DNA from: a virus
DNA length: 20,168 nucleotides
Reading direction: 5' to 3' (one strand)
Virus record (IMG/VR): IMGVR_UViG_3300008448_000878
Coordinates: 1-20,168 of that record
The translations under genes were made by a program, and so were the position numbers. How positions within the stretch are numbered: the stretch's first letter is position 1; every line of letters begins with the position of its first letter. The notes beneath the pieces are model-generated. The model made no database searches and was not told the DNA's origin. It was given only the letters and a program-made list of their open reading frames with translations. Positions 6,992 through 19,012 of the stretch are shown piece after piece.

Positions 6992-7813
6992 ATGAAAGTT
7001 AACTATTTAAATAACAAAGATCTACTAGAAGAAATTCACAAAAGCAAAAACACATTCTGTTCGTTTAACGATCCGTCTTATCACCAATATGATATTATCT
7101 TGCCCAATGTTGATAAAATCAACATTAGAACTATTGCAGAAGCTAAAAGAAATAAAGCCAAGCGATTAGGGGATCAAGAATATGCAAGACGTAAAGCTGC
7201 CGGCGAAAAAGTTAAGCAAGCAGAGTGCGAAGTAGATTATAAAAAAATCACAAAACAAGAACTAGTGTTTAGAATCATGACATTCGATCATATTCCGCTA
7301 AATGGCACTAGAAAAAAGAATCCCAAAAGTGTAGCTGATCATAGAGATAAAGTAAATTTTCCTCCATTCCAACATTTTAAGTTTAACGATCAAGATATTT
7401 TAGAATGTGTTGGAAAAAGTCACTGGAAGGGTCCGTTAGATACTGGTAAATTTAATAAAGATCACGGACAGATTACAAATACACTAGCACGGATGTATAT
7501 CAAACTGTGCGAGCGTTATGCTACTAGGGGTAACGTTAGAGGTTACACTTACAACGACGAAATGAAGGGGCAGGCTATTTTACAACTTGCCCAAATTGGT
7601 CTACAGTTTGACGAGTCAAAGTCTAATAATCCGTTTGCTTACTTTACAGCCGCTGTAACTAATAGCTTTGTTCGTATTATTAACTTGGAAAAACGCAATC
7701 AAAACATTCGAGATGATCTGCTTGAAATTAATGGTATGAATCCTAGCTACACTAGAACTAGCGACGGCGATCATGCTAACGCTATGAAAAGATTTGATGC
7801 CGAAACCGAGTGA
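6992..7813 (+). CDS. gp55: Sigma factor for late transcription gp55, enlarged
   Basis: gp55 is a minimal sigma-family protein that directs host RNA polymerase to late promoters. Residues 4-15 (NYLNNKDLLEEI) match the T4 N-terminus (NYVNNKELLQAI), and the core from residue 159 contains an F-D-E-S-K-S-N-N-P-F-A-Y-F-T-A block close to T4 F-D-E-T-K-Y-K-N-P-H-A-Y-I-T, followed by an A-F/F-V-R-I-I-N-x-E-K-R helix. T4 gp55 is 185 residues; this one is 273. The extra length is an insertion of roughly 135 residues (about 20-158), basic in its first half and rich in aromatic residues and His in its second half. The C-terminus (AMKRFDAETE) lacks the hydrophobic-acidic sliding-clamp-binding motif of T4 gp55. 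It is first in the block and followed by gp47 and gp46, the T4 order. Confidence 0.85.
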   Translation: MKVNYLNNKDLLEEIHKSKNTFCSFNDPSYHQYDIILPNVDKINIRTIAEAKRNKAKRLGDQEYARRKAAGEKVKQAECEVDYKKITKQELVFRIMTFDHIPLNGTRKKNPKSVADHRDKVNFPPFQHFKFNDQDILECVGKSHWKGPLDTGKFNKDHGQITNTLARMYIKLCERYATRGNVRGYTYNDEMKGQAILQLAQIGLQFDESKSNNPFAYFTAAVTNSFVRIINLEKRNQNIRDDLLEINGMNPSYTRTSDGDHANAMKRFDAETE

Positions 7814-7858: not shown

Positions 7859-8872
7859 TTGAGTAATTTATTTAAAAAAACAGCCTGTTTTACTGACATT
7901 CATTTCGGATTGAAGTCAAACAGTCAAGTACACAACCAAGACTGCAACGATTTTGTAGATTGGTACATTGCAGAAGCCAAGAAAGAAGGGTGCGATACAG
8001 GCATCTTTCTTGGCGACTGGCATCACAACCGCAACAGTTTGAACATTACTACAATGGATCACAGCTTGAGGGCTTTGGAAAAATTAGGTGCTGCCTTTGA
8101 TCAGTTCTTTTTCTTTCCTGGCAATCATGATTTGTACTACAAAGACAAACGTGATATTCACTCAGTAGAGTTTGGCAAGTATATTCCCGGCGTTACTATT
8201 GTACACAAGCCTATGACAATAGGTGATGTTACTATGTGCCCATGGTTAGTAGGCGATGAGTGGAAAACTATCGGCAAGAAAGGTGGCAAATATATATTTG
8301 GTCACTTTGAACTGCCCAGCTTCTTTATGAATGCCATGGTGCAAATGCCGGATCATGGTGAAATTCAATTAGACAGCTTTAAAGGTTACGAACTAGGCTT
8401 TAGCGGACACTTTCACAAACGTCAAGTTAAACAGAACATGCACTACATTGGCAATGCATTTCCCCATAACTATGCAGATGCATGGGATGATGACCGCGGC
8501 ATGATGATATTAGAATGGGGCAAACAACCTGTTTACAAAACTTGGCTAGATGCTCCTAAGTTTAGAACTGTAAAGCTCAGCAAGTTGATCGACGAAGCTG
8601 ATGATTTATTGTTGAGTAAGATGCATCTTCGTGTAGGACTTGACATTGATATCAGTTACGAAGAAGCTAGCTTTATCAAAGAAAAGTTTATTGCCGACTA
8701 CGACATTAGAGAACTTACACTGATTCCTGAAAAGAAAGAAGTTGAGATCAATACTACTATTGATATTCAAACTTTTGAATCAGTAGATCAAATTGTATCC
8801 AATCAATTGGTCAATATTGAAAGCGACACTTACGATAACAAAGTGTTGTTGAGCATTTATAACAGCCTATGA
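7859..8872 (+). CDS. gp47: Recombination endonuclease subunit gp47 (SbcD/Mre11-like)
   Basis: A 337-residue calcineurin-like phosphoesterase (T4 gp47 is 339). All metal-binding motifs are visible: D13-x-H15, G52-D53, G88-N89-H90-D91, a GHFE with H149, and G-H184-F-H186. With gp46 it forms the Mre11/Rad50-type complex that resects DNA ends, feeding recombination-dependent replication, and in T4 helps degrade host DNA. The start is TTG at 7859, chosen because an AAGGA site lies 7 bases upstream and the N-terminal strand before D13 would otherwise be lost; no ATG is nearby. Its stop overlaps the gp46 start (ATGA), so the two subunits are probably translationally coupled. Confidence 0.95.
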   Translation: MSNLFKKTACFTDIHFGLKSNSQVHNQDCNDFVDWYIAEAKKEGCDTGIFLGDWHHNRNSLNITTMDHSLRALEKLGAAFDQFFFFPGNHDLYYKDKRDIHSVEFGKYIPGVTIVHKPMTIGDVTMCPWLVGDEWKTIGKKGGKYIFGHFELPSFFMNAMVQMPDHGEIQLDSFKGYELGFSGHFHKRQVKQNMHYIGNAFPHNYADAWDDDRGMMILEWGKQPVYKTWLDAPKFRTVKLSKLIDEADDLLLSKMHLRVGLDIDISYEEASFIKEKFIADYDIRELTLIPEKKEVEINTTIDIQTFESVDQIVSNQLVNIESDTYDNKVLLSIYNSL

Positions 8873-10650
8873 CTATAAAAATTAAAGAATTAACCGTTAA
8901 GAACTTTATGAGCGTGGGTAATCAAACCCAGGCTGTGGACTTTTGTAAAGAAAACTTAACATTAGTGTTAGGTGAAAACTTAGATCAAGGCGGAGATGAC
9001 AGCGGCAGTCGCAACGGTACAGGTAAAACAACTATTGTCAATGCCTTAAGCTTTGCATTGTTTGGCACTGCACTGACTAACATTAAAAAAGACAACCTTA
9101 TTAATAAAATTAACAATAAGGGCATGTTGGTTACACTGAGTTTTGACAAAGACGGCAACAAATATAAGATCGAACGTGGTCGTAAGCCCACTGTTATGAA
9201 GTTTTATGTCAATGATCAAGAACAAGCTGCCAACGACAACGATGACAGTCAAGGTGACATGCGTGAAACGCAAAAGGATATTCACGAATTGTTGGGCATG
9301 ACACATGATATGTTCAAACATATTGTAGCCTTGAACACTTATACTGAACCGTTCTTGAGCATGAAAGCCAATGAACAGAGAGAAATCATTGAGCAGTTGT
9401 TGGGCATTACCTTGCTAAGTGAGAAAGCCGAAGCTCTCAAAGAACGAGTTAGAGAAACTAAAGAAGCAATCATACAAGAAACTTCAAACATTGAAGCAAC
9501 TAAACGTAGCAACGACAAAATTCAAATCAGTATCGACAGTTTGATTACAAGGCAACGTGCTTGGAACAAACAACGAGATCTAGATTTAGAAAAGATTGCC
9601 GGCAGTATTGCAGAATTACAACAAGTTGACATTGAAAAAGAATTAGAGCAACATGCTAAACTAAAAACATACGACGAGTTGGCTGCAAGAATTAAAAGTC
9701 TAAGCAAAGAAAAAGCAACTCTTGAAAATGCACTAGGGCAAGCTGATAGGTCTGTTGCAAAATATCAAAAAGAAGTTGAACAGCTTAAAGATAACAAGTG
9801 TCCTGCTTGTGAACAAGACTTGCACGATCACAAACACGACGAATTAAAAGCTCGTGCTGACAAAAATTTAGAAGAATCAGGCGTATATCTTTCTAAAGTC
9901 ACTCATGACTTGAGTAAAGTTGTAGGCGAGTTAGATAAAATAGGCGACATTAACGGACGCCCAAAGGTATATTATGAAACTCTCGAGGAAGCTCTACGGC
10001 ATCAAAACAATTTGGCTACGCTTGAAAGTGCGTTGGTGGCTAAGGCGGGCGAACAGGATCCTTACCAAGAACAAATTGAAGAACTCCAACAAACTGCACT
10101 CCAAGATGTAAACTGGGATGCTGTTAATAATTTGAACACACTCAAAGACCATCAAGAGTTTTTGTTAAAATTGTTGACAAACAAAGACAGTTTTATTCGT
10201 AAAAAGATTATTGATCAGAACTTAGCTTACTTAAACAACAGGCTAACTTATTATCTTGACAAGATGGGCTTGCCTCATACTGTTACATTCTTAAACGACT
10301 TAACTGTTGAGATTATGCAGTTAGGTCAAGACTTAGACTTTGACAACTTGTCACGTGGTGAACGCAACAGATTGATTTTAGGATTGAGCTGGGCATTCCG
10401 TGATGTATGGGAAAGTTTATATCAAAGTATCAACTTGTTGTTCATTGACGAATTAATCGACAACGGTTTAGATGCTAACGGTGTTGAAAATGCACTGAGT
10501 GTACTTAAGAAGATGGGCAGAGAACGCAAGAAAAACATTTATCTAATCAGTCACAAGGATGAATTGATTGGGCGTGTTAACAATGTTCTCAAAGTTATTA
10601 AAGAAAATGGTTTTACCAGCTACGCTAATGATCTTGAAATTGAAGAATGA
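8869..10650 (+). CDS. gp46: Recombination endonuclease subunit gp46 (SbcC/Rad50-like ATPase)
   Basis: A 593-residue SMC-like ABC ATPase (T4 gp46 is 560). Motifs in order: Walker A S-R-N-G-T-G-K-T-T (47-55), preceded by a Gly/Asp/Ser-rich loop; coiled-coil arm 185-310; zinc hook C311-P-A-C314; returning coiled coil to about 440; ABC signature LSRGE (494-498); Walker B LLFIDE (523-528); D-loop N-G-L-D (532-535); and the switch histidine in S-H562-K-D. It partners gp47 in DNA-end processing. The arm is short, as in T4 and unlike cellular Rad50. The start overlaps the gp47 stop and its stop overlaps the next start, both as ATGA. All catalytic elements are intact. Confidence 0.95.
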   Translation: MTIKIKELTVKNFMSVGNQTQAVDFCKENLTLVLGENLDQGGDDSGSRNGTGKTTIVNALSFALFGTALTNIKKDNLINKINNKGMLVTLSFDKDGNKYKIERGRKPTVMKFYVNDQEQAANDNDDSQGDMRETQKDIHELLGMTHDMFKHIVALNTYTEPFLSMKANEQREIIEQLLGITLLSEKAEALKERVRETKEAIIQETSNIEATKRSNDKIQISIDSLITRQRAWNKQRDLDLEKIAGSIAELQQVDIEKELEQHAKLKTYDELAARIKSLSKEKATLENALGQADRSVAKYQKEVEQLKDNKCPACEQDLHDHKHDELKARADKNLEESGVYLSKVTHDLSKVVGELDKIGDINGRPKVYYETLEEALRHQNNLATLESALVAKAGEQDPYQEQIEELQQTALQDVNWDAVNNLNTLKDHQEFLLKLLTNKDSFIRKKIIDQNLAYLNNRLTYYLDKMGLPHTVTFLNDLTVEIMQLGQDLDFDNLSRGERNRLILGLSWAFRDVWESLYQSINLLFIDELIDNGLDANGVENALSVLKKMGRERKKNIYLISHKDELIGRVNNVLKVIKENGFTSYANDLEIEE

Positions 10651-10903: not shown

Positions 10904-11341
10904 ATGTCATGGTATTATCAAAACGCAATAGTTGAAACTCTTCCAGAAGAATGTATAGGTTTCGTCTATTGTATCACTAATAACATCACTGGTCGCAAAT
11001 ATATAGGCAAAAAATTAGCTAAATTCTCTAAAACCACTTATAAAACAGTAAAACTCAAAAACGGCAACAAGAAGAAAAAGAAGATTCGTTCTAAAATTGA
11101 TTCTGATTGGCGTGAATACTATGGCTCAAGCGATCATTTAACAAAAGATATAGAAACTCTAGGCGCAGACAATTTCACAAGAGAAATACTTTACTACTGC
11201 AACTCAAAGGCTGAATGCTCTTACATAGAGGCAAGAGAACAATTTACAAGACGTGTTCTCGAAAGTGACGACTACTACAACGGACACATAGCTGTTCGTG
11301 TACACGGAAGTCATATCAAAGGCAAACAATTAAACGGTTAA
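10904..11341 (+). CDS. GIY-YIG family nuclease
   Basis: 145 residues. The N-terminal half carries the family's two-strand signature: G-F-V-Y-C-I-T-N (19-26, the GIY strand) and K-Y-I-G-K-K (32-37, the YIG strand). A lysine-rich insertion follows (about 47-62), then D-W-R-E-Y-Y-G-S-S (68-76), G-A-D-N-F-T-R-E-I-L (87-96), a likely catalytic glutamate in Y-I-E109-A-R-E, and Y-Y-N126-G. The domain cleaves one DNA strand with a single metal ion. Many T4-like phages use it in homing endonucleases of the Seg or I-TevI type, and T4 EndoII (DenA) uses it for host DNA breakdown. No separate C-terminal DNA-binding domain is visible, so it could be either a degradative enzyme or a compact homing enzyme. 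It starts 8 bases after the preceding gene and is followed by a long structured non-coding region. Confidence 0.75.
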   Translation: MSWYYQNAIVETLPEECIGFVYCITNNITGRKYIGKKLAKFSKTTYKTVKLKNGNKKKKKIRSKIDSDWREYYGSSDHLTKDIETLGADNFTREILYYCNSKAECSYIEAREQFTRRVLESDDYYNGHIAVRVHGSHIKGKQLNG

Positions 11342-11543
11342 AGCTCGCACAGGCTAATTTCGTGTGCCCAGCATTCAGACAACGGGTTTAACTACACCGG
11401 GACGGAAATCTCTTGCCGTTAAGAGTACTCAGCAACTATCCTTAACAGGACGACGACTAGATATGCCTTCATAGAACTAGTTTTGCTGTTTGAAGATCTT
11501 TAATTTAATAAGGCTAATGATGGGGAACTAACCATAACCCCAC

Positions 11544-11576
11544 GCTTTGCAAATGTGATAGTGTACATTTGCAAGC
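11544..11576 (+). other. Strong hairpin within the structured region
   Basis: GCTT-(T bulge)-GCAAATGT pairs with ACATTTGC-AAGC around the 8-base loop GATAGTGT: twelve Watson-Crick pairs with one bulged T. It is too long to be a likely chance event in 490 bases and has no U-run, so it is not a terminator. Confidence 0.7.
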
Positions 11577-11600
11577 CGCCGTTGTAACAAGACAGAATGA

Positions 11601-11623
11601 GCAGGTACCGGACAACCGCCTGC
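11601..11623 (+). other. Bulged GC-rich hairpin within the structured region
   Basis: GCAGG, a TAC bulge, CGG, loop ACAA, then CCG and CCTGC: eight pairs, seven of them G-C. A one-sided three-base bulge within a GC-rich stem is a common design in folded RNAs and protein-binding RNA sites. Confidence 0.65.
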
Positions 11624-11648
11624 GATACAATAATTCTAACACTATGTG

Positions 11649-11677
11649 ACTGTGCTACTCAGATAATGCAGTTTTTT
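11649..11677 (+). terminator. Weak terminator-like hairpin with T-run
   Basis: ACTGTG pairs with TGCAGT (two G-U pairs, 12-base loop) and runs straight into six T (11672-11677). It could end transcripts coming from the gp46/GIY-YIG side, or the 3' end of an RNA made from 11342 onward. The stem is weak and the next strong hairpin starts at once. Confidence 0.3.
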
Positions 11678-11697
11678 CTTAGCCCGCTAGGGCTAAG
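11678..11697 (+). other. Perfect 8-bp hairpin with GCTA loop
   Basis: CTTAGCCC-GCTA-GGGCTAAG. It is preceded, not followed, by T residues, so on neither strand does it have terminator form. The hexamer GGCTAA of its 3' arm also occurs at 11352-11357 and 11512-11517, giving possible alternative partners for its 5' arm. Confidence 0.65.
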
Positions 11698-11810
11698 TGT
11701 GACCGCTTAATCTAGATAATACTTAATTCACTGCTTCGCTATCGCTACGCAGCTTCTTTTAAAACATCGTTTAAAAAAAAAATTAGTTCGAGCTGACAAG
11801 CGAAGAACTG

Positions 11811-11827
11811 GATGTACGAAGTACATC
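11811..11827. other. 17-base inverted repeat next to a late promoter
   Basis: GATGTAC-GAA-GTACATC is a perfect 7-base inverted repeat around a 3-base centre, ending three bases before the late-type element at 11831. As DNA it would occupy about -33 to -17 of that promoter. It could be an operator, or the final hairpin of the upstream structured region. Confidence 0.5.
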
Positions 11828-11830
11828 TCT

Positions 11831-11838
11831 AATAAATA
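11831..11838 (+). promoter_or_regulatory. Late-promoter-like element AATAAATA
   Basis: AATAAATA, seven of eight bases to the T4 late consensus and of NATAAATA form. A start near 11844 gives a 13-base leader with GGAAGA before the ATG at 11857. It marks the switch from early/middle genes on the left to late genes on the right. Confidence 0.6.
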
Positions 11839-11856
11839 ACATACATTGGAAGACCT

Positions 11857-12876
11857 ATGAAAGTAAGTGAAATTATCTTAGAAGCACCTCAAACTGGAAC
11901 AAATGCCTTTTCACAGATGGCTGGTCAGTTAGGTGGCGGAACATCTAGTACAGGTGGTACAACTAAATCTACCTCTACTGGACAAACACATAAATCAAAC
12001 CCTAATAATCCTAACAATGCTTCTCCTAAGAAGCCTGGATCTACTAAGAAAACTGGCACTAAACTTAGTGCTGGACCTAAAGGTTTAGTTTCTAATGCAG
12101 GAGGAAAATCAACTTCTGTTAGTCCTAAAGATGCACTTAAAACGGCTGCTCCTGATAAGGTTGCTGTAGCAGAAAAAGTATCTGGAGGAAAGTGGGAAAA
12201 GTTTAAAGCTACTAAACCTTTTAAGATGTTTGGATTAAAAACTTTAGGGCCATTTCTTATTTGGTTAGACGACATGTCTAGTATTAACGAATTGTGGGAT
12301 GCTGGAGCGTTTAATGATCACGGTGATAAAGCCGGAGAAGTTGTCCAACAGTTAAGAACTTACTATACTCAACTATTAATCACTAGAATGGGAACAATGT
12401 GGGTTGTATGGGGATCAGCTAGTTTTGTTACAGGTATGGCTGTTAGAGCTCTCGTAGCACTGATTCCTGGTCTAGGATGGCTGGCTAACTTAGCTGCGGT
12501 AGTAGCGCAAGGTGCGGTATACTTATTATTAAACAGTGAAGTTGTTCAAAAATATTTAACTTTTACTATATTAGAAAATCTAGCACCTGACTGGATGAGC
12601 AATTCAGCGTATGGTATTGCTAGAGTGTTTGGCGGAGTTGGCGGCTTAATAGGACCTTATATAACTAAACTAAAAGATAAATTTGCAAAAGAAGCCCCTG
12701 AAGTTGCAAAAGCTGTTCCTGGAGCAGCTGCCAATGTAGCAAAAGACGCAGCAAATGCTGTAAAAAATACAGGATCTACTGTTGCTAAAGACGGTGCAAC
12801 CGCTGTAAAAAATATAGGATCTGCCCCAGCAGCCGAACCGTTAGGCGCTATGTCTGACCTAGCTAAAGATCTTTAA
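11857..12876 (+). CDS. Putative internal head (ejected) protein with membrane hairpin
   Basis: 339 residues, no named family recognised. The N-terminus MKVSEIILEA resembles the capsid-targeting sequence of T4 internal proteins (MKTYQEFIAEA), which the prohead protease gp21 cuts after hydrophobic-x-E; here I7-L8-E9 followed by A10 fits. A Ser/Thr/Gly/Lys/Pro-rich flexible region follows (about 20-110). Two long hydrophobic segments at about 180-202 and 205-225, separated by P-G-L-G, look like a membrane hairpin. The C-terminus is Ala/Lys-rich with two 15-residue tandem repeats (293-307 and 308-322). A late-type promoter precedes it. I infer a virion protein packed in the head and possibly delivered to the host membrane at infection. 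A holin or membrane-assembly factor is the main alternative. Confidence 0.7.
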   Translation: MKVSEIILEAPQTGTNAFSQMAGQLGGGTSSTGGTTKSTSTGQTHKSNPNNPNNASPKKPGSTKKTGTKLSAGPKGLVSNAGGKSTSVSPKDALKTAAPDKVAVAEKVSGGKWEKFKATKPFKMFGLKTLGPFLIWLDDMSSINELWDAGAFNDHGDKAGEVVQQLRTYYTQLLITRMGTMWVVWGSASFVTGMAVRALVALIPGLGWLANLAAVVAQGAVYLLLNSEVVQKYLTFTILENLAPDWMSNSAYGIARVFGGVGGLIGPYITKLKDKFAKEAPEVAKAVPGAAANVAKDAANAVKNTGSTVAKDGATAVKNIGSAPAAEPLGAMSDLAKDL

Positions 12877-13099: not shown

Positions 13100-13924
13100 T
13101 TAGACGAAAAAATTTGATTGATCCAATGTAACTGAAACTTTTTCGCTATGCTCACAACTGCCGCATTTGATATCTTGTTCAGGAATAGACCATGTTTCTT
13201 TATTCTTTTCAAGTTGGTCTTTGATTATTTTGTAAACTGAACTGTCGGCATTTTTCAACCATTCTTTAATTTGTTCTTTATCAGTAACAGTAGACTCCGG
13301 AGTCTGAACATGTTCAATACTGGTCATAAACAAGTTAACCTGTATATCAGCTAGACGTCGATATACTTCATTTAAGTTTTCATTCTTTTGATCTTCTGGC
13401 AAATCATTAGTTTGGTAAAGCATACGTTGTAGTTTAAAATTTTCTAATGACACTTCACTAGATTCTTTATAGCTCAACGGGCGTAGTTTTACAGTAATTT
13501 CGTCGCTAATTTTTACTTTAGATACAAACTCAATATTACTAAAATATTCTATTAAAGTTTGTAGTGGAATATCAAAATTGTTTTCTTCTCCGCAGGCTGT
13601 ACAGTTATGTACGATGCTCATATGATCGCCAAATGTTGCTATTCTTATAGCAATTAACACAGCATCAACATCAATGTTAGGCATTTCTTTAGCATCAGCA
13701 ATAAACGGACAGCAACTTTCGATTACTTTTGTAGATGCTTCTCCGGTAAAAAGTGCATCAGGAGTTTTAAAAATAATCTCATCCATGCCAGTCATGCCAA
13801 AAATTGGCACATTATTATAGTCTCCCTTTAATGCACCTGGTGGGTAGTGTAGACCTTTACTAGGCAATTGAATAAAGATTTTAGGTTGTCTAAAATACTT
13901 TGTTAGTGGGTTAGATTGACTCAT
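13100..13924 (-). CDS. gp26: Baseplate hub assembly protein gp26
   Basis: 274 residues from the ATG at 13924 (MSQSNPLTKYF), of the T4 gp26 baseplate-protein family (T4 gp26 is 208). The N-terminal block with Q-L-P-S-K-G-L-H-Y (19-27) and F-x-M-T-G-M-D-E-I (42-50) is characteristic. Two C-x-x-C pairs, C108/C111 and C254/C257, suggest a zinc ribbon closing from two distant segments. An in-frame ATG at 13996 would add 24 residues rich in Tyr, Phe and Lys, but it lies upstream of the exact late-promoter octamer at 13950-13957, so the message would not contain it; it would also overlap the start of the divergent gene. gp26 takes part in building the central hub. The small gene 12873-13088 follows in the operon. 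Confidence 0.82.
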   Translation of the reverse strand: MSQSNPLTKYFRQPKIFIQLPSKGLHYPPGALKGDYNNVPIFGMTGMDEIIFKTPDALFTGEASTKVIESCCPFIADAKEMPNIDVDAVLIAIRIATFGDHMSIVHNCTACGEENNFDIPLQTLIEYFSNIEFVSKVKISDEITVKLRPLSYKESSEVSLENFKLQRMLYQTNDLPEDQKNENLNEVYRRLADIQVNLFMTSIEHVQTPESTVTDKEQIKEWLKNADSSVYKIIKDQLEKNKETWSIPEQDIKCGSCEHSEKVSVTLDQSNFFV

Positions 13925-13935
13925 GGTTTTTGTCC

Positions 13936-13943
13936 GATAAATA
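13936..13943 (+). promoter_or_regulatory. Late-promoter-like element GATAAATA for the tape-measure gene
   Basis: GATAAATA fits NATAAATA and has seven of eight bases of the T4 late consensus. A start near 13949 gives a leader of about 34 bases with AGG 9 bases before the ATG at 13983. It faces the opposing element at 13950-13957. Confidence 0.55.
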
Positions 13944-13949
13944 TATGAG

Positions 13950-13957
13950 TATTTATA
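13950..13957 (-). promoter_or_regulatory. Exact late promoter TATAAATA for gp26
   Basis: The minus strand reads TATAAATA, identical to the T4 late consensus. A start near 13944 leaves about 20 bases before the gp26 ATG at 13924. This is the best late-promoter match seen in the window and it decides the gp26 start. Confidence 0.65.
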
Positions 13958-13982
13958 TACGCATTTTTCCAGGTAAAAAAAT

Positions 13983-16900
13983 ATGGCACTAGACACAAAA
14001 GACCAAATAATAATGCGAGATGCATTTTATGATGCACTTGACAAATGGAGCGGCAAAAAAGGCGGCAGCCTCGGCGGTGGTGGCGGTGGTGGTGGAGGTG
14101 GCGGTGTTGATGCAAAAGCATCATTAGCTGGAAAAGCATTTGAAAATGTATCAAATGCAATTAAAGGTACTGCCGGTGCAGCTCTTGATTTTAGCGGAAG
14201 ATTAGCTAAAGGTGGTGTTAGCGTAACAGATGCTACAAAAATATTAGGAAACAATCTTGAAAGAGCAGGCGGCGCAGGCGGAAACTTAGTTAGTTCAATA
14301 GGAAAAACAGTAAACGCTTTTGGAGACATTATCAACTATGTTGAAGAAGGCGTAGATGTTTTTAGAGAATTAAGTAAAACTGGAGCAACTTTTAACAACA
14401 GCGTAGTTGATATGCGAGCAGCCGCAGCAGGTAGCAGGCTAACTATGCAAGAGTTTGGGAATATTATTAAAGATAATAATACCAGTTTTTTATCTCTAGG
14501 ACATGAAGGAGAAAAAGGTGCAAAGGCATTTGCAAAACTCAGCAAAGGGTTCTTTGACAGCGGATTTGGAGACAAACTAACTCAGTTAGGCTATTCAAGT
14601 GAAGATTTGAATAAGTTAATGGCCATACAAATGACCAACATGTCAGCTAGAGAACTTAAAGAAAAAGGTGGAGCAGAAGCACAATATGCATCAACTGCCA
14701 AGCTAGCTGAAGAAATGGACTTGATGGCCAAGATAACTGGTAAAAGCCGTAAAGAACAAGAAGAAACACTAGCTAAAGCTAAAGCTAGTGGACAAGTACA
14801 AGCTGCTATTCAGCTTGAACAAATGAACGGTAATGCCAAAGCAGGTGAAGCATTTGATGCTGTAGCAACTTCTACTAGCGGAAAGTTTGGAGAACTAGTT
14901 CAGCAAATGGTATCATCTGGTCGTCCGTTAACAGAAGAAGGCAGAAAATATATGGGTATGCTTTCTCAAGACACACAGAAAGCTATTCAAGAAGCTAGAG
15001 ATGCTTACAAGCGAGGTGACGTAGAAGGTGCAAGAGAAGCTGCCAAACGTGCTCAAGCATTAGAGTCTGCTGAAGCTGCTACAAATAAAAGTAGATTAGC
15101 GTTAGCTGCACAAGGTGTCAAAGGATTTGAAGAATCTACACAAGAAGGTATAAGATACGGGAAATTGTTAGCAGAAAAAGCTAAAGAACTTGGTACAAAT
15201 ATAACTGATCCAAAAGCCATTGAAGCTGCAAGAAAGGCTTTAGAAACTGAAGCAAAGAAAGAACAGGCAGCTCGCTCAGGAGAAACTGCTAGTGTAATTG
15301 AAGCACAAAATCGTATTAAAGATATGGGCAGTGCTATTCAAGAAAGTATTATTGTTCCTTTAAAAGACGAAGCAAACAAAAAAGCACTTAATGATTTTTA
15401 TAAAACTCTTGCAGATTTAAATCAAAGCAAAGCTAAAGGCGGAACAGCAACAAGCGACAAAGGATTTGCTGGAGATGTTAGCAAAGGACTTGATACTGTT
15501 AAAGCGGAATTAACAAAAGCTATAAGCAGAGTAACCAGTGAAACAGGTCCAGACCAAAAATTTAGTAGTGATGCAGCTAAAGCAACAAACCAAACACAAT
15601 TAGATGCGCTTAAGAAAGCAGTTTCTGAATCCTCCAGAAAAGATGTTAGTAAAGCTGAAGGAGAAGAAATAAAATCATTGGCAAAATCTTTAAAAGGAGT
15701 TGATGGCGAAGTTATATCTAAGCGTATCGCAGACATTGCAGAAAAATCTGGAAAAACACAAGAACAAGTTATTAAAGAAGCAGTAAACAAACCTGGAGGT
15801 ATTGGAAATTTAAACAAACAAATAGGTGAAGATCCTGCTGCTAAAAAAATTACAGAGCTATCTGCAGAAGCTACCAAAAGAGAAGCAGATGCTAAAACTG
15901 GAACAAAAATTGCACAAGAAAAAGGAAGAGATACTTCTGGAACTGGTGCGGAAGCAATAACTAAAGGACTTAAATCAGGATTAGAGACTTTAGGCTCATT
16001 GACAACTGGAACTATTGACTTGTTTAAAGTTGAAGGTGATTTAAAGATAGAAGGCGTTAACATTAATAAACGTGCTACAGGTGGTTTTATTGGCAAACCT
16101 GAAGTAAGTTTAATCGGTGAAGAAGGTCCTGAATGGGTTCTCAATAAAGAACAAATGGCTGCTACATTAGAAGGCGCTGCTAATAGAGGTATGGAACAAA
16201 TGGGCAAACTATTGCCTCCTCCTGAAGAAGGTTCTAAATCTTCATTTGCAGAAAGTATGGCAGAGTCTGTTAGAAAAGGAATGGAAACTGTGGGAGTACG
16301 AGGAAATCCTACAGGCGGTGCCGACGGCCTTGATCTAAGCAGTATTTCTAAAGAAATTTCTACAACTATTAGTAGTGTATCTGGAGGCAATGCTACCACT
16401 ACTAGAAGTGTACAAAATGAAGAAAGTTTAGCAGCTTCTAAAGAACTTGCGGCAGTAAAAGAACAATATGCTGCCGAACGTGAAGCACTATTACAAAAAA
16501 CTAAAGAACAGTTAGGACCCAATGCTGGCTCTAGGCAGATCCGCAACGCAATGCGAGAAGGGGACGAAGGTAAAGCACTAGAAGAAAAGTATTCAGCAAT
16601 ACGAGCTTCGTTAGAGAAGAAGATAGAAGATGGTATCAAATGGGAAACAACTGAAAAACTAAATGCTACCGAAGAGACTAAAAAAATATTAGATGAAGAA
16701 TTAAACATTCTAAAACTACATGGAATGGAAAAACTTGCTATAACAGAGTTTAACGAAGAAGAAATTGCTAAACTTCTTGAAGAAAGCAGTTCTGATCTAA
16801 ATGATTTCTATGTAGATATGAACGGAGATTTGCAAAAATGGGCAGAAGACTCTACTAAAACATTAGAGCAAAAACAACAAGAAGCACAAACCCAATTAAA

Positions 16901-17266: not shown

Positions 17267-19012
17267 ATGAGTTGGAAAAAATATTTCACACCAGTTAATG
17301 TAGACAATAATCCGTCTGCTTCTGGTCCCTTATCCGGTACCAGTAGGCCTGGACCAGCACGAAAAAACTATAGCAGTTTCTTACCTGATGTCTACACTGG
17401 AGCTCCAAACCGTATTGAAAGATATAATCAATACGACACTATGGATATGGACAGTGAAGTTAATGCTGCCTTAGATATTTTAGCTGAGTTTTCTAGCCAA
17501 AAAAATAAAGAAAACTACACTCCGTTTGCTTTGCATTTTAAAAGCAAAGCTACAAATAGTGAAGTTAGTATTCTAAGAGAATACTTGCAACAATGGACAA
17601 AGCTACAAAAATTTGAAACAAGAATTTTTAGAATAGTTCGCAATGTATTCAAATACGGTGATTGTTTCTTTGTTAGAGATCCAGAAACTTACAAATGGTT
17701 TTACATCGATCCTAGTAAAATTGTTAAGATTATTGTAAACGAAAGTGACGGTAAACAACCTGAACAATATGTTATTCGTGATTTAAATCCAAACTTTATG
17801 GATCTAGTTACTACTACAATTCAACCTAGCAATTTAAACACAAACAACAGAGGCACTAACTATGCTGGACCTAATGCCAGCGGAGCAGCGAGAGGCATGA
17901 CTGGAAGTTATCCTCAAGGCGGAACAGTAGGAACTAGATTTGATCTACAACAAAATGAACTAGCAATTGATGCAAAACATGTAATTCATCTAAGTCTAAG
18001 CGAAGGTCTTGACAACAACTATCCTTTTGGTAACAGCTTATTAGAAAACATTTTTAAAGTGTTTAAACAAAAAGAATTGCTTGAAGATGCTATCTTAATC
18101 TATCGTATACAACGTGCTCCAGAAAGACGTATTTTCTATATTGACGTAGGTAACATGCCAAGTCACTTGGCTATGGGATTTGTTGAACGTGTTAAAAATG
18201 AAATACATCAACGACGTATTCCTAGTTCAACTGGCGGAGGCCAAAATGTTATCGACTCAGCTTACAATCCTTTAAGCATTAACGAAGATTATTTCTTCCC
18301 AACAACTGCTGAAGGTCGTGGTTCTAAAGTAGAAACTTTACCGGGCGGTACTAACTTGGGTGAAATTGATGATTTAAAATATTTTACCAACAAGTTGTTC
18401 CGCGGTTTAAGAATCCCAAGTAGCTATCTGCCAACTGGTGCAGATGATGGTCAAGCTTCATATAATGACGGTCGCGTCGGCACAGCATATATTCAAGAAC
18501 TGCGTTTTAACAATTACTGTATGCGTTTACAAAGTTTAATGCAAGACGAATTTGATCAAGAATTTAAATTATATCTACACGATAGAGGTGTAAACATTGA
18601 TTCAAGTCTTTTTGATTTACAGTTTCAACCTCCTCAAAACTTTGCTTCATATCGTCAAGCAGAGCTTGATAACCAACGTATCAACACATACGGTACTATC
18701 AGTCAGCAAACTTATATCTCAAAGCGTTTTGCATTGAAGCGTTACTTAGGACTAAGCGAAGAAGAAGTTGCAGAAAACGAACGCCTATGGGCAGAAGAGA
18801 ACGGCAAAGGACATCCTGCTGTTACTGATGCCAGCGGAGAACTTCGTGGAGTTGGTGTAAGTCAAAGTGGATTAGAAGCTGATACCGAAGCTATGACAGA
18901 CACAGAAGCTCCTCCAGGAATGGAAGTACCAGGAGCTGAAGGAGCCGCAGGATCACCAGTACCTCCTGCAGGAGCCGCAGCTCAACCTGCAGGTACACCG
19001 CCAGCAGCATAA
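17267..19012 (+). CDS. gp20: Portal vertex protein gp20
   Basis: 581 residues (T4 gp20 is 524). The portal is a dodecameric ring at one head vertex; it nucleates the prohead and is the channel for DNA packaging and release. Recognisable features are the M-D-M-D-S-E-V-N-A-A-L-D-I block near residue 62, V-F-K-Y-G-D-C-F-F near 128, the R-I-Q-R-A-P-E-R-R-I-F-Y-I-D-V-G-N-M-P block near 280, and N375-K-L-F-R-G-L-R-I-P-S-S-Y-L. These fall in the regions that make gp20 a marker for marine myoviruses. The last 45 or so residues are an Ala/Pro/Gly/Glu-rich tail absent from T4. It follows the tape-measure gene by 11 bases, whereas in T4 gp20 follows the tube gene gp19. Confidence 0.93.
   Translation: MSWKKYFTPVNVDNNPSASGPLSGTSRPGPARKNYSSFLPDVYTGAPNRIERYNQYDTMDMDSEVNAALDILAEFSSQKNKENYTPFALHFKSKATNSEVSILREYLQQWTKLQKFETRIFRIVRNVFKYGDCFFVRDPETYKWFYIDPSKIVKIIVNESDGKQPEQYVIRDLNPNFMDLVTTTIQPSNLNTNNRGTNYAGPNASGAARGMTGSYPQGGTVGTRFDLQQNELAIDAKHVIHLSLSEGLDNNYPFGNSLLENIFKVFKQKELLEDAILIYRIQRAPERRIFYIDVGNMPSHLAMGFVERVKNEIHQRRIPSSTGGGQNVIDSAYNPLSINEDYFFPTTAEGRGSKVETLPGGTNLGEIDDLKYFTNKLFRGLRIPSSYLPTGADDGQASYNDGRVGTAYIQELRFNNYCMRLQSLMQDEFDQEFKLYLHDRGVNIDSSLFDLQFQPPQNFASYRQAELDNQRINTYGTISQQTYISKRFALKRYLGLSEEEVAENERLWAEENGKGHPAVTDASGELRGVGVSQSGLEADTEAMTDTEAPPGMEVPGAEGAAGSPVPPAGAAAQPAGTPPAA

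Follow-up and report, generated by a model that had tools for sequence, protein, structure and literature searches.

Polynucleobacter-1 as the apparent 5' third of a conserved, pseudoknotted RNA of T4-like phages that carries one seven-nucleotide element twice

The locus

The stretch of DNA analysed here (the window) is a 20,168-base virus record, a fragment of a genome with the gene content of a T4-like myovirus. Its late sigma factor gene and the SbcD- and SbcC-like genes, which we take to be the counterparts of T4 gp55, gp47 and gp46, lie on the upstream side of the region of interest, and structural genes lie on its downstream side:

6992-7813, late sigma factor gene
7859-8872, SbcD/gp47-like gene
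8869-10650, SbcC/gp46-like gene
between the gp46-like and GIY-YIG genes, a small ORF
10904-11341, + strand, SegE-like GIY-YIG endonuclease gene (PF19835, 113.9 bits against a cut-off of 25)
11342-11830, RNA-bearing gap between the GIY-YIG gene and the ORF at 11857-12876
11333-11830, + strand, proposed extent of the whole structured RNA
11342-11491, + strand, match to Rfam RF01718 (Polynucleobacter-1), model positions 1-141 complete
11492-11830, + strand, 3' two thirds of the RNA, outside Rfam, conserved in relatives
11831-11838, + strand, T4-late-promoter-like AATAAATA
11857-12876, + strand, downstream gene without a family match, opening with the short N-terminal leader MKVSEIILEA
13100-13996, minus strand, T4 baseplate protein gene
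17267-19012, portal protein gene

The original prediction placed a new, hairpin-packed phage non-coding RNA in a gap of ~490 bases without a credible gene, ahead of a late promoter. The gap was borne out, as no ORF longer than 42 aa lies within 11342-11830 on either strand (ORFs of at least 40 aa were listed), and a late-promoter-like AATAAATA is indeed present at 11831. T4 late promoters read TATAAATA and need the phage sigma factor gp55, according to PMC3014915. The strict form of the box, [GC][AC]TAAATA, precedes only 2 of the 18 ORFs in the phage window, and the TAAATA-like box is AT-rich. No sigma-70-like promoter was found on the + strand near the RNA in the window, nor any late-type motif between 10600 and 11830, and the 20-kb genome fragment holds no tRNA genes.

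The RNA includes the whole of Polynucleobacter-1

We scanned the RNA with the covariance models of Rfam release 15. Bases 11342-11491 match the full RF01718 model at 87.9 bits, far above its gathering cut-off of 37 (E 7.3e-18), and the other ~340 bases (11492-11830) match no Rfam family, even at E 5. The scan confirmed that GOLLD, ROOL, manA, wcaG, tmRNA and group I intron models do not match, in line with the original prediction, but the RNA can be matched to a known family: with a complete RF01718 match in its first 150 bases, it is already partly on record. The candidate is therefore a structured RNA, with compensatory changes in its homologues (below), whose 5' third is not new.

Polynucleobacter-1 is named once in the main text of Weinberg et al. 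2010, in a table, where it is marked 'y' as an RNA, 'y' (tentatively) as cis-regulatory and '?' as a switch, with Burkholderiales and fresh water/estuary as its sources (PMC2864571). In the literature searched, that paper is the only one in which we found the name or the accession. No description of the 3' part, of the twin repeats or of the bacterial cassettes presented below was found in a search that drew mostly on texts outside subscription journals and preprints.

Folding energy alone is weak evidence for structure here: the z-score is -1.69 for the + strand and -2.21 for the - strand, and for each strand 4 of 100 shuffles were at least as stable. Comparison of relatives provides strong evidence. 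With loci too near a contig end left out, there were 143 full-length sequences, of which 115 remained after removal of 28 near duplicates; we aligned 100 non-redundant relatives with covariance models; such alignments are fitted to the modelled structure and hence lean towards the modelled pairs. In the nested helices, 95.1% (5' part) and 91.0% (3' part) of cells are paired, and 474 and 611 cells, respectively, carry changes on both sides of a pair, against means of 128 and 171 in shuffled alignments; none of 500 shuffles was as high on any of five measures. A home-made test resembling R-scape, a G-test with APC run on 115 sequences against 40 tree-based null alignments, picked out 54 column pairs distributed over 11336-11827. 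Of these, 36 are at least 78% standard; the other 18 include three pairs between the twin repeats as well as non-standard or misaligned pairs. G-U cells (667) greatly outnumber A-C cells (177), which identifies the + strand as the RNA strand, and GNRA-like loops can be seen by eye on that strand. Thus the compensatory changes that were to be sought in homologues were found by both routes, and the possibility that the gap holds a decayed protein gene is refuted by this covariation; nor is there any ORF above 42 aa.

Taken together, the comparisons show a single conserved + strand RNA of ~490 nt, of which Polynucleobacter-1 makes up the 5' third. The motif, catalogued in 2010 with no function attached, proves to be a third of a large RNA that is frequent across a widespread T4-like phage group. 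The predicted limits of 11342-11830 are roughly right; the conserved unit begins at 11333, with a pseudoknot strand in the last codons of the GIY-YIG ORF, and its last covarying pair ends at 11827. No U-rich intrinsic terminator was found at the RNA 3' end.

Hairpins and pseudoknots

The main elements of the RNA are:

11333-11337 with 11416-11420, + strand, pseudoknot PK1, its 5' strand overlapping the end of the GIY-YIG ORF
11342-11344 with 11353-11355, + strand, short pseudoknot PKa, crossing the stem 11347-51/11363-67
11546-11575, + strand, 11-pair hairpin (11546-56/65-75)
11558-11564 with 11639-11645, + strand, pseudoknot PK2, seven pairs formed by a hairpin loop
11581-11585 with 11612-11616, + strand, pseudoknot P7, crossing the stem 11601-05/11619-23
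11656-11668, + strand, twin repeat copy 1, T-ACTC-AGATAAT-G
11678-11697, + strand, 8-pair hairpin between the twin repeats (11678-85/90-97)
11709-11721, + strand, twin repeat copy 2, A-ATCT-AGATAAT-A
11786-11808 and 11811-11827, + strand, two terminal hairpins, the second of 7 pairs (11811-17/21-27)

The hairpins drawn by eye in the original prediction are real, three large ones having 11, 8 and 7 pairs; a description in terms of hairpins missed the pseudoknots and the twin repeats. All 11 pairs of the longest hairpin change on both sides (95.8% of cells paired), 87.9% of cells are paired in the hairpin between the twin repeats, and six covarying pairs fall within 11811-11827.

The four pseudoknots are absent from the Rfam RF01718 structure and from our models, and their support is therefore freer of alignment bias. 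In PK2 and P7 together 97.2% of 1185 cells are paired, with both-side changes in 172 cells against 55 in shuffles (0 of 500 as high), and sliding one partner by 1-3 columns lowers the pairing to 24-54%. Each of the seven PK2 pairs has changed on both sides; P7 is paired in 99.2% of cells, one of its pairs being UA in 56 relatives and CG in 44, and the next GC in 59, AU in 33 and GU in 8. PK1 and PKa are paired in 79.9% of 782 cells, with 114 both-side changes against 46 (again 0 of 500). The inner four pairs of PK1 are standard in 82.5% of cells and each has changed on both sides, while its outermost pair is standard in 36.8%; PKa is paired in 89.0% of cells, with both-side changes in two of its three pairs. 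For each set, two of the five measures were reached by some shuffles, namely the number of both-side-changed pairs (13 of 500 for PK2/P7 and 18 of 500 for PK1/PKa) and the number of further pair types (6 and 111 of 500).

Two other possible contacts were noted. The loop UGCCU at 11464-11468 is apparently complementary to AAGGC at 11510-11514 and, judged by eye, co-varies with it in several relatives (GCC/GGC, ACCT/AGGT). Positions 11439 and 11451 covary strongly as a non-standard pair, U-C exchanging with C-U (ACTATCC..GGACGA versus ACTACCC..GGATGA).

Twin repeats

The hairpin at 11678-11697 is flanked by ACTC-XYZTRAW and ATCT-XYZTRAW. We set this pattern without demanding identity between the copies, and it matches 110 of the 115 RNAs. 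In all 110 the XYZ, R and W positions are each equal between the copies, so that the 7-mer is identical, where independent copies would be expected to agree in 47.8, 56.8 and 72.0 RNAs, respectively. The base before each copy is equal in 87 of 110 (48.2 expected), the window being among the exceptions. The element itself varies: the twin types are AGATAA, GGATGA, GGATAA, AGATGA, GCATAA and AGTTGA, with ACTTAA in one bacterial RNA and ACATGA or GCATGA in the divergent type-B RNAs described below. On the RNA tree the 7-mer requires 37 parsimony changes in each copy, and the copies always agree. No identical twins occur elsewhere in 3.05 Mb of the same loci.

Three of the five RNAs missed by the pattern have identical 7-mers behind a varied prefix and are recovered by a looser pattern, giving 113 of 115; the two without twins lie on one 327-kb contig. 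Applied to all RNAs, the looser pattern gives identical copies in 109 of 113, and in the other four it starts from a different, earlier CTC.

The comparison thus shows two identity-locked 7-nt elements in the RNA. For a large orphan RNA, a pair of short elements that never change independently is an uncommon clue to its binding partner, and one that can be tested directly. The covariation test on 115 sequences gave no third column inside the RNA that covaries with the twins as their target; the twins covary with each other only, so any partner is a matter of conjecture. Pairing of the two copies with each other, judged by eye, would fit the AGAT and GGAT types and fails for GCAT, ACAT and ACTT. 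A reading as a translational hop was dropped because, by eye, no open frame runs consistently into the repeats.

Distribution among phages

A short pattern for the 5' (Rfam) part found at least 120 stretches in IMG/VR, and among the matches listed 87 of the 120 records found in this way score above the RF01718 cut-off (34/50, 25/30 and 28/40). Sequence conservation continues ~300 bases beyond the Rfam motif. A pattern for the 3' part only likewise found at least 120 stretches, 89 of them new among the matches listed. From 45 sequences each we built models of the 5' part (R1) and of the 3' core (R2). R1 matches 82 of these 89 new loci, among the matches listed, and the seven that it misses all have 104 bases or fewer before the pattern. 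Both models match 100 of 100 non-redundant phage loci (of the 115), a set that includes many of the model-building sequences.

A second sample was chosen by the presence of a gp26-like protein nearby (80 loci kept from at least 597, some on contigs already seen). R2 matches 58 and R1 55 of the 80; among the 57 loci with enough sequence (at least 2 kb beyond gp26), R2 matches 50, and five of the remaining seven (L241, L250, L251, L279 and L293) carry identical twin repeats at the same place, four of them with weak R2 matches there (E 0.006-0.03). Neither R2 nor the repeat pattern found an RNA or twin repeats in the last two, L281 and L283. Comparison of the RNA with named phages by blastn gave short chance-level matches or none, and for this reason we know of no named phage with the RNA.

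By eye, a divergent 'type B' RNA lies behind the GIY-YIG gene at L293:2020-2500, L241:7830-8330 and L296:8000-8390 and, judged by its twin repeats, also occurs in L250, L251 and L279. Its 5' part differs, the twin repeats (ACATGA, GCATGA) are kept, and so are the terminal hairpins where these were read by eye. The two RNAs without twins, L202 and L214, are two copies on one 327,256-base jumbo-phage contig (IMGVR_UViG_3300044644_001125), score 57 and 69 bits with R1 and 98 and 93 bits with R2, and both lack a GIY-YIG neighbour.

Neighbouring genes

No neighbouring gene is constant across loci. Of the 152 loci with enough sequence, 137 have a GIY-YIG gene at most 420 nt upstream, at an estimated median gap of 6 nt. 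In another seven (L086, L139, L144, L167, L209, L048 and L219) the gene stops 0.78-0.93 kb short of the 5' core motif, and the stretch examined holds none in the remaining eight. The intervening stretch of L086 encodes, by eye, a second GIY-YIG-like protein, and in L010, with no GIY-YIG gene in the stretch examined, the RNA is preceded (L010:3963-4484) by the gene of an unrelated protein of 173 aa, nuclease-like as judged by eye. The stretch before the RNA is perhaps a hot spot for nuclease genes.

On the downstream side, by our ORF rule, 63 of 105 non-redundant loci have an ORF on the same strand next to the RNA and 42 do not (10 of the 115 loci were too short, and some of the 63 ORFs look spurious). 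A leader like MKVSEIILE opens 40 of these 63 ORFs, against 10 of 723 other ORFs, and in 33 of the 40 (I/L/V)xE stands close behind it. T4 internal head proteins are diverse and have a capsid targeting sequence in common, as described in PMC3012670. We infer that the MKxxEIIxE leader resembles it; this likeness is our own reading, and it is only through it that the RNA would be linked to heads.

Copies in bacterial genomes

A pattern search of 84,980 species genomes gave one match, on a 152,914-base contig of a Methylococcaceae MAG, where by eye pilin, SDR and sensor-kinase-like genes lie beside the copy. RF01718 scored above its cut-off in 3 of 151 genomes drawn from the family and 4 of 35 of the genus; a class-wide draw of 369 genomes returned only the starting genome itself. 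In all, the RNA was found in five distinct genomes. We read six copies (L304, L305, L306, L307, L329 and L330), all matched by R1 and, at E up to 1, by R2 (L307 in part, 28 bits). Mis-binning is possible, because some of the genomes are metagenome-assembled and three copies (L305, L306 and L330) are on contigs of 4.4 to 14.5 kb; those of L304, L307 and L329 are longer, at 48 to 229 kb.

Five of the six copies are preceded by a divergent basic protein that starts MRISELL, MRINELL, MKIQELL or MKISEII, and five are followed by a protein of 51-64 aa, RHH-like in our view, one of which has no Pfam match; in L306 and L330 one side is truncated or interrupted. All 10 of the 10 cassette genes have the motif [GC][AC]TAAATA within 60 bases of their start, compared with 2 of 50 other ORFs in these sequences, and five of the six RNAs have it upstream. 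The RNA of phage L240 is 92.5% identical to that of bacterial L304 over 414 nt, and the flanks differ. Bacterial genomes thus appear to carry a near copy of the phage RNA behind late-promoter-like sequences. If phage late promoters switch such cassettes on, these would be satellites or defence elements that act through RNA; we know of no precedent for either.

Defence-type genes are found in L306 (MmeI-like and TIR) and L329 (NYN/HEC-09), and a resolvase (PF00239) in L305, with another far off in L306 by eye. No integrase was recognised in the cassettes, and no relatives of the cassette leader protein were found in named phages (E up to 0.1) or IMG/VR. Empty-site comparison defined no cassette ends; it is uninformative here because the homologous contigs end too soon or differ at the site.

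Interpretation and alternatives

We consider it fairly probable that this is a trans-acting structured RNA of late T4-like phage infection, with Polynucleobacter-1 as its 5' third, that is imitated by phage-responsive bacterial cassettes. Trans action, late timing, a repeated partner, a link to heads or packaging and the triggering of the cassettes by phage are what we infer from the comparisons above. In the phage, read-through from the gp55-gp47-gp46-GIY-YIG side would produce the RNA, and processing would then set it free; in the bacterial cassettes, it would start at its own late-type promoter once an infecting phage supplies the late sigma factor gp55. The folded body would display two copies of one 7-nt element with a single hairpin between them, and the two copies may meet two copies of one partner, either a dimeric protein or two nucleic-acid targets. 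Both copies would change together because this partner differs among phages. That leader-bearing proteins accompany the RNA in many phages and in the cassettes suggests a partner from late head assembly or packaging. Set off by the phage, the cassettes in bacteria would be hitch-hikers or decoys, mimicking its RNA. More tentatively, and with the odds somewhat against it, the RNA may be a late phage RNA of new architecture, a pseudoknotted scaffold offering a repeated partner two copies of a phage-specific 7-nt element, between which selection maintains identity; the cassettes may then form a new, minimal phage-triggered class with a counterfeit RNA and a leader-bearing protein behind a phage-type late promoter, either hitch-hiking or sabotaging.

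Among the other explanations, a function at the DNA level or as a primer transcript, with the conserved element serving as a replication origin or packaging site copied by bacterial elements, is unlikely. T4 R-loop origins are a precedent, and the element is common to phage and bacterium with different flanks, but G-U cells lie far above A-C cells and GNRA-like loops are seen on the + strand, from which we conclude that selection acts on an RNA fold, though a primer transcript might have such a fold too. The RNA might instead serve the GIY-YIG nuclease as partner or guide, as omega RNAs serve TnpB and IscB; the close spacing of the two genes and the overlap of the 5' pseudoknot strand with the end of the GIY-YIG ORF speak for it. 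The neighbour count makes this rather improbable: the obligate linkage expected of a guide is missing, as 15 of the 152 loci are non-adjacent. Inspection by eye shows no GIY-YIG ORF immediately next to any of the six bacterial copies. Of the 508 records with a tblastn match, ten named phages that carry the nuclease homologue were checked, and none has RF01718 or, in the stretch examined, an R1 or R2 match.

Control of the next gene in cis, by a leader or riboswitch, would fit the tentative cis-regulatory mark in the 2010 table (PMC2864571; the mark is not an Rfam requirement) and the 63 loci with a same-strand ORF next in line. It is made quite improbable by the 42 of 105 loci with no such ORF, a count that also speaks for trans action, by the late-promoter-like sequence between RNA and gene in the window, and by the different neighbour beside the bacterial copies. 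GIY-YIG genes can ride in group I introns, so an intron or ribozyme relic left by such an element might be considered, but this seems very improbable: Rfam gives no match besides RF01718 up to E 5, the window shows neither a group I model match nor an interrupted gene around the RNA, and the base pairs are maintained. Chance folding or a decayed protein gene, to which the modest + strand energy z-score might point, is hardly conceivable in the face of the covariation and the absence of longer ORFs.

Among known systems, the closest is Polynucleobacter-1 itself, whose record of 141 positions is contained here in a ~490-nt RNA with four pseudoknots and twin repeats; its 2010 sources (PMC2864571) were other than the phage contigs and Methylococcaceae genomes in which we find it. 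GOLLD and ROOL are likewise large, ornate phage-associated RNAs, ROOL with multiple pseudoknots (PMC12286853), but the window RNA is shorter and matches neither model, and they often, not always, lie near tRNA genes, of which this fragment has none. Phage satellites such as PLE of Vibrio cholerae are chromosomal and answer to infection (PMC7145576), as the cassettes may do; the cassettes differ in being ~2 kb, in having no recognised integrase or replication gene and in carrying a copy of a phage RNA. As in the internal head proteins of T4 (PMC3012670), diverse proteins here have only a short N-terminal leader in common.

The GIY-YIG gene is most likely a homing endonuclease gene that has settled next to a conserved RNA gene. 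Freestanding homing endonuclease genes often lie beside essential genes, a known pattern in phages (PMC10448857); in the present case the gene alongside codes for an RNA. PHROG 447, like many phage records, labels the SegE-like GIY-YIG protein 'NAD synthetase', which is probably a propagated error.
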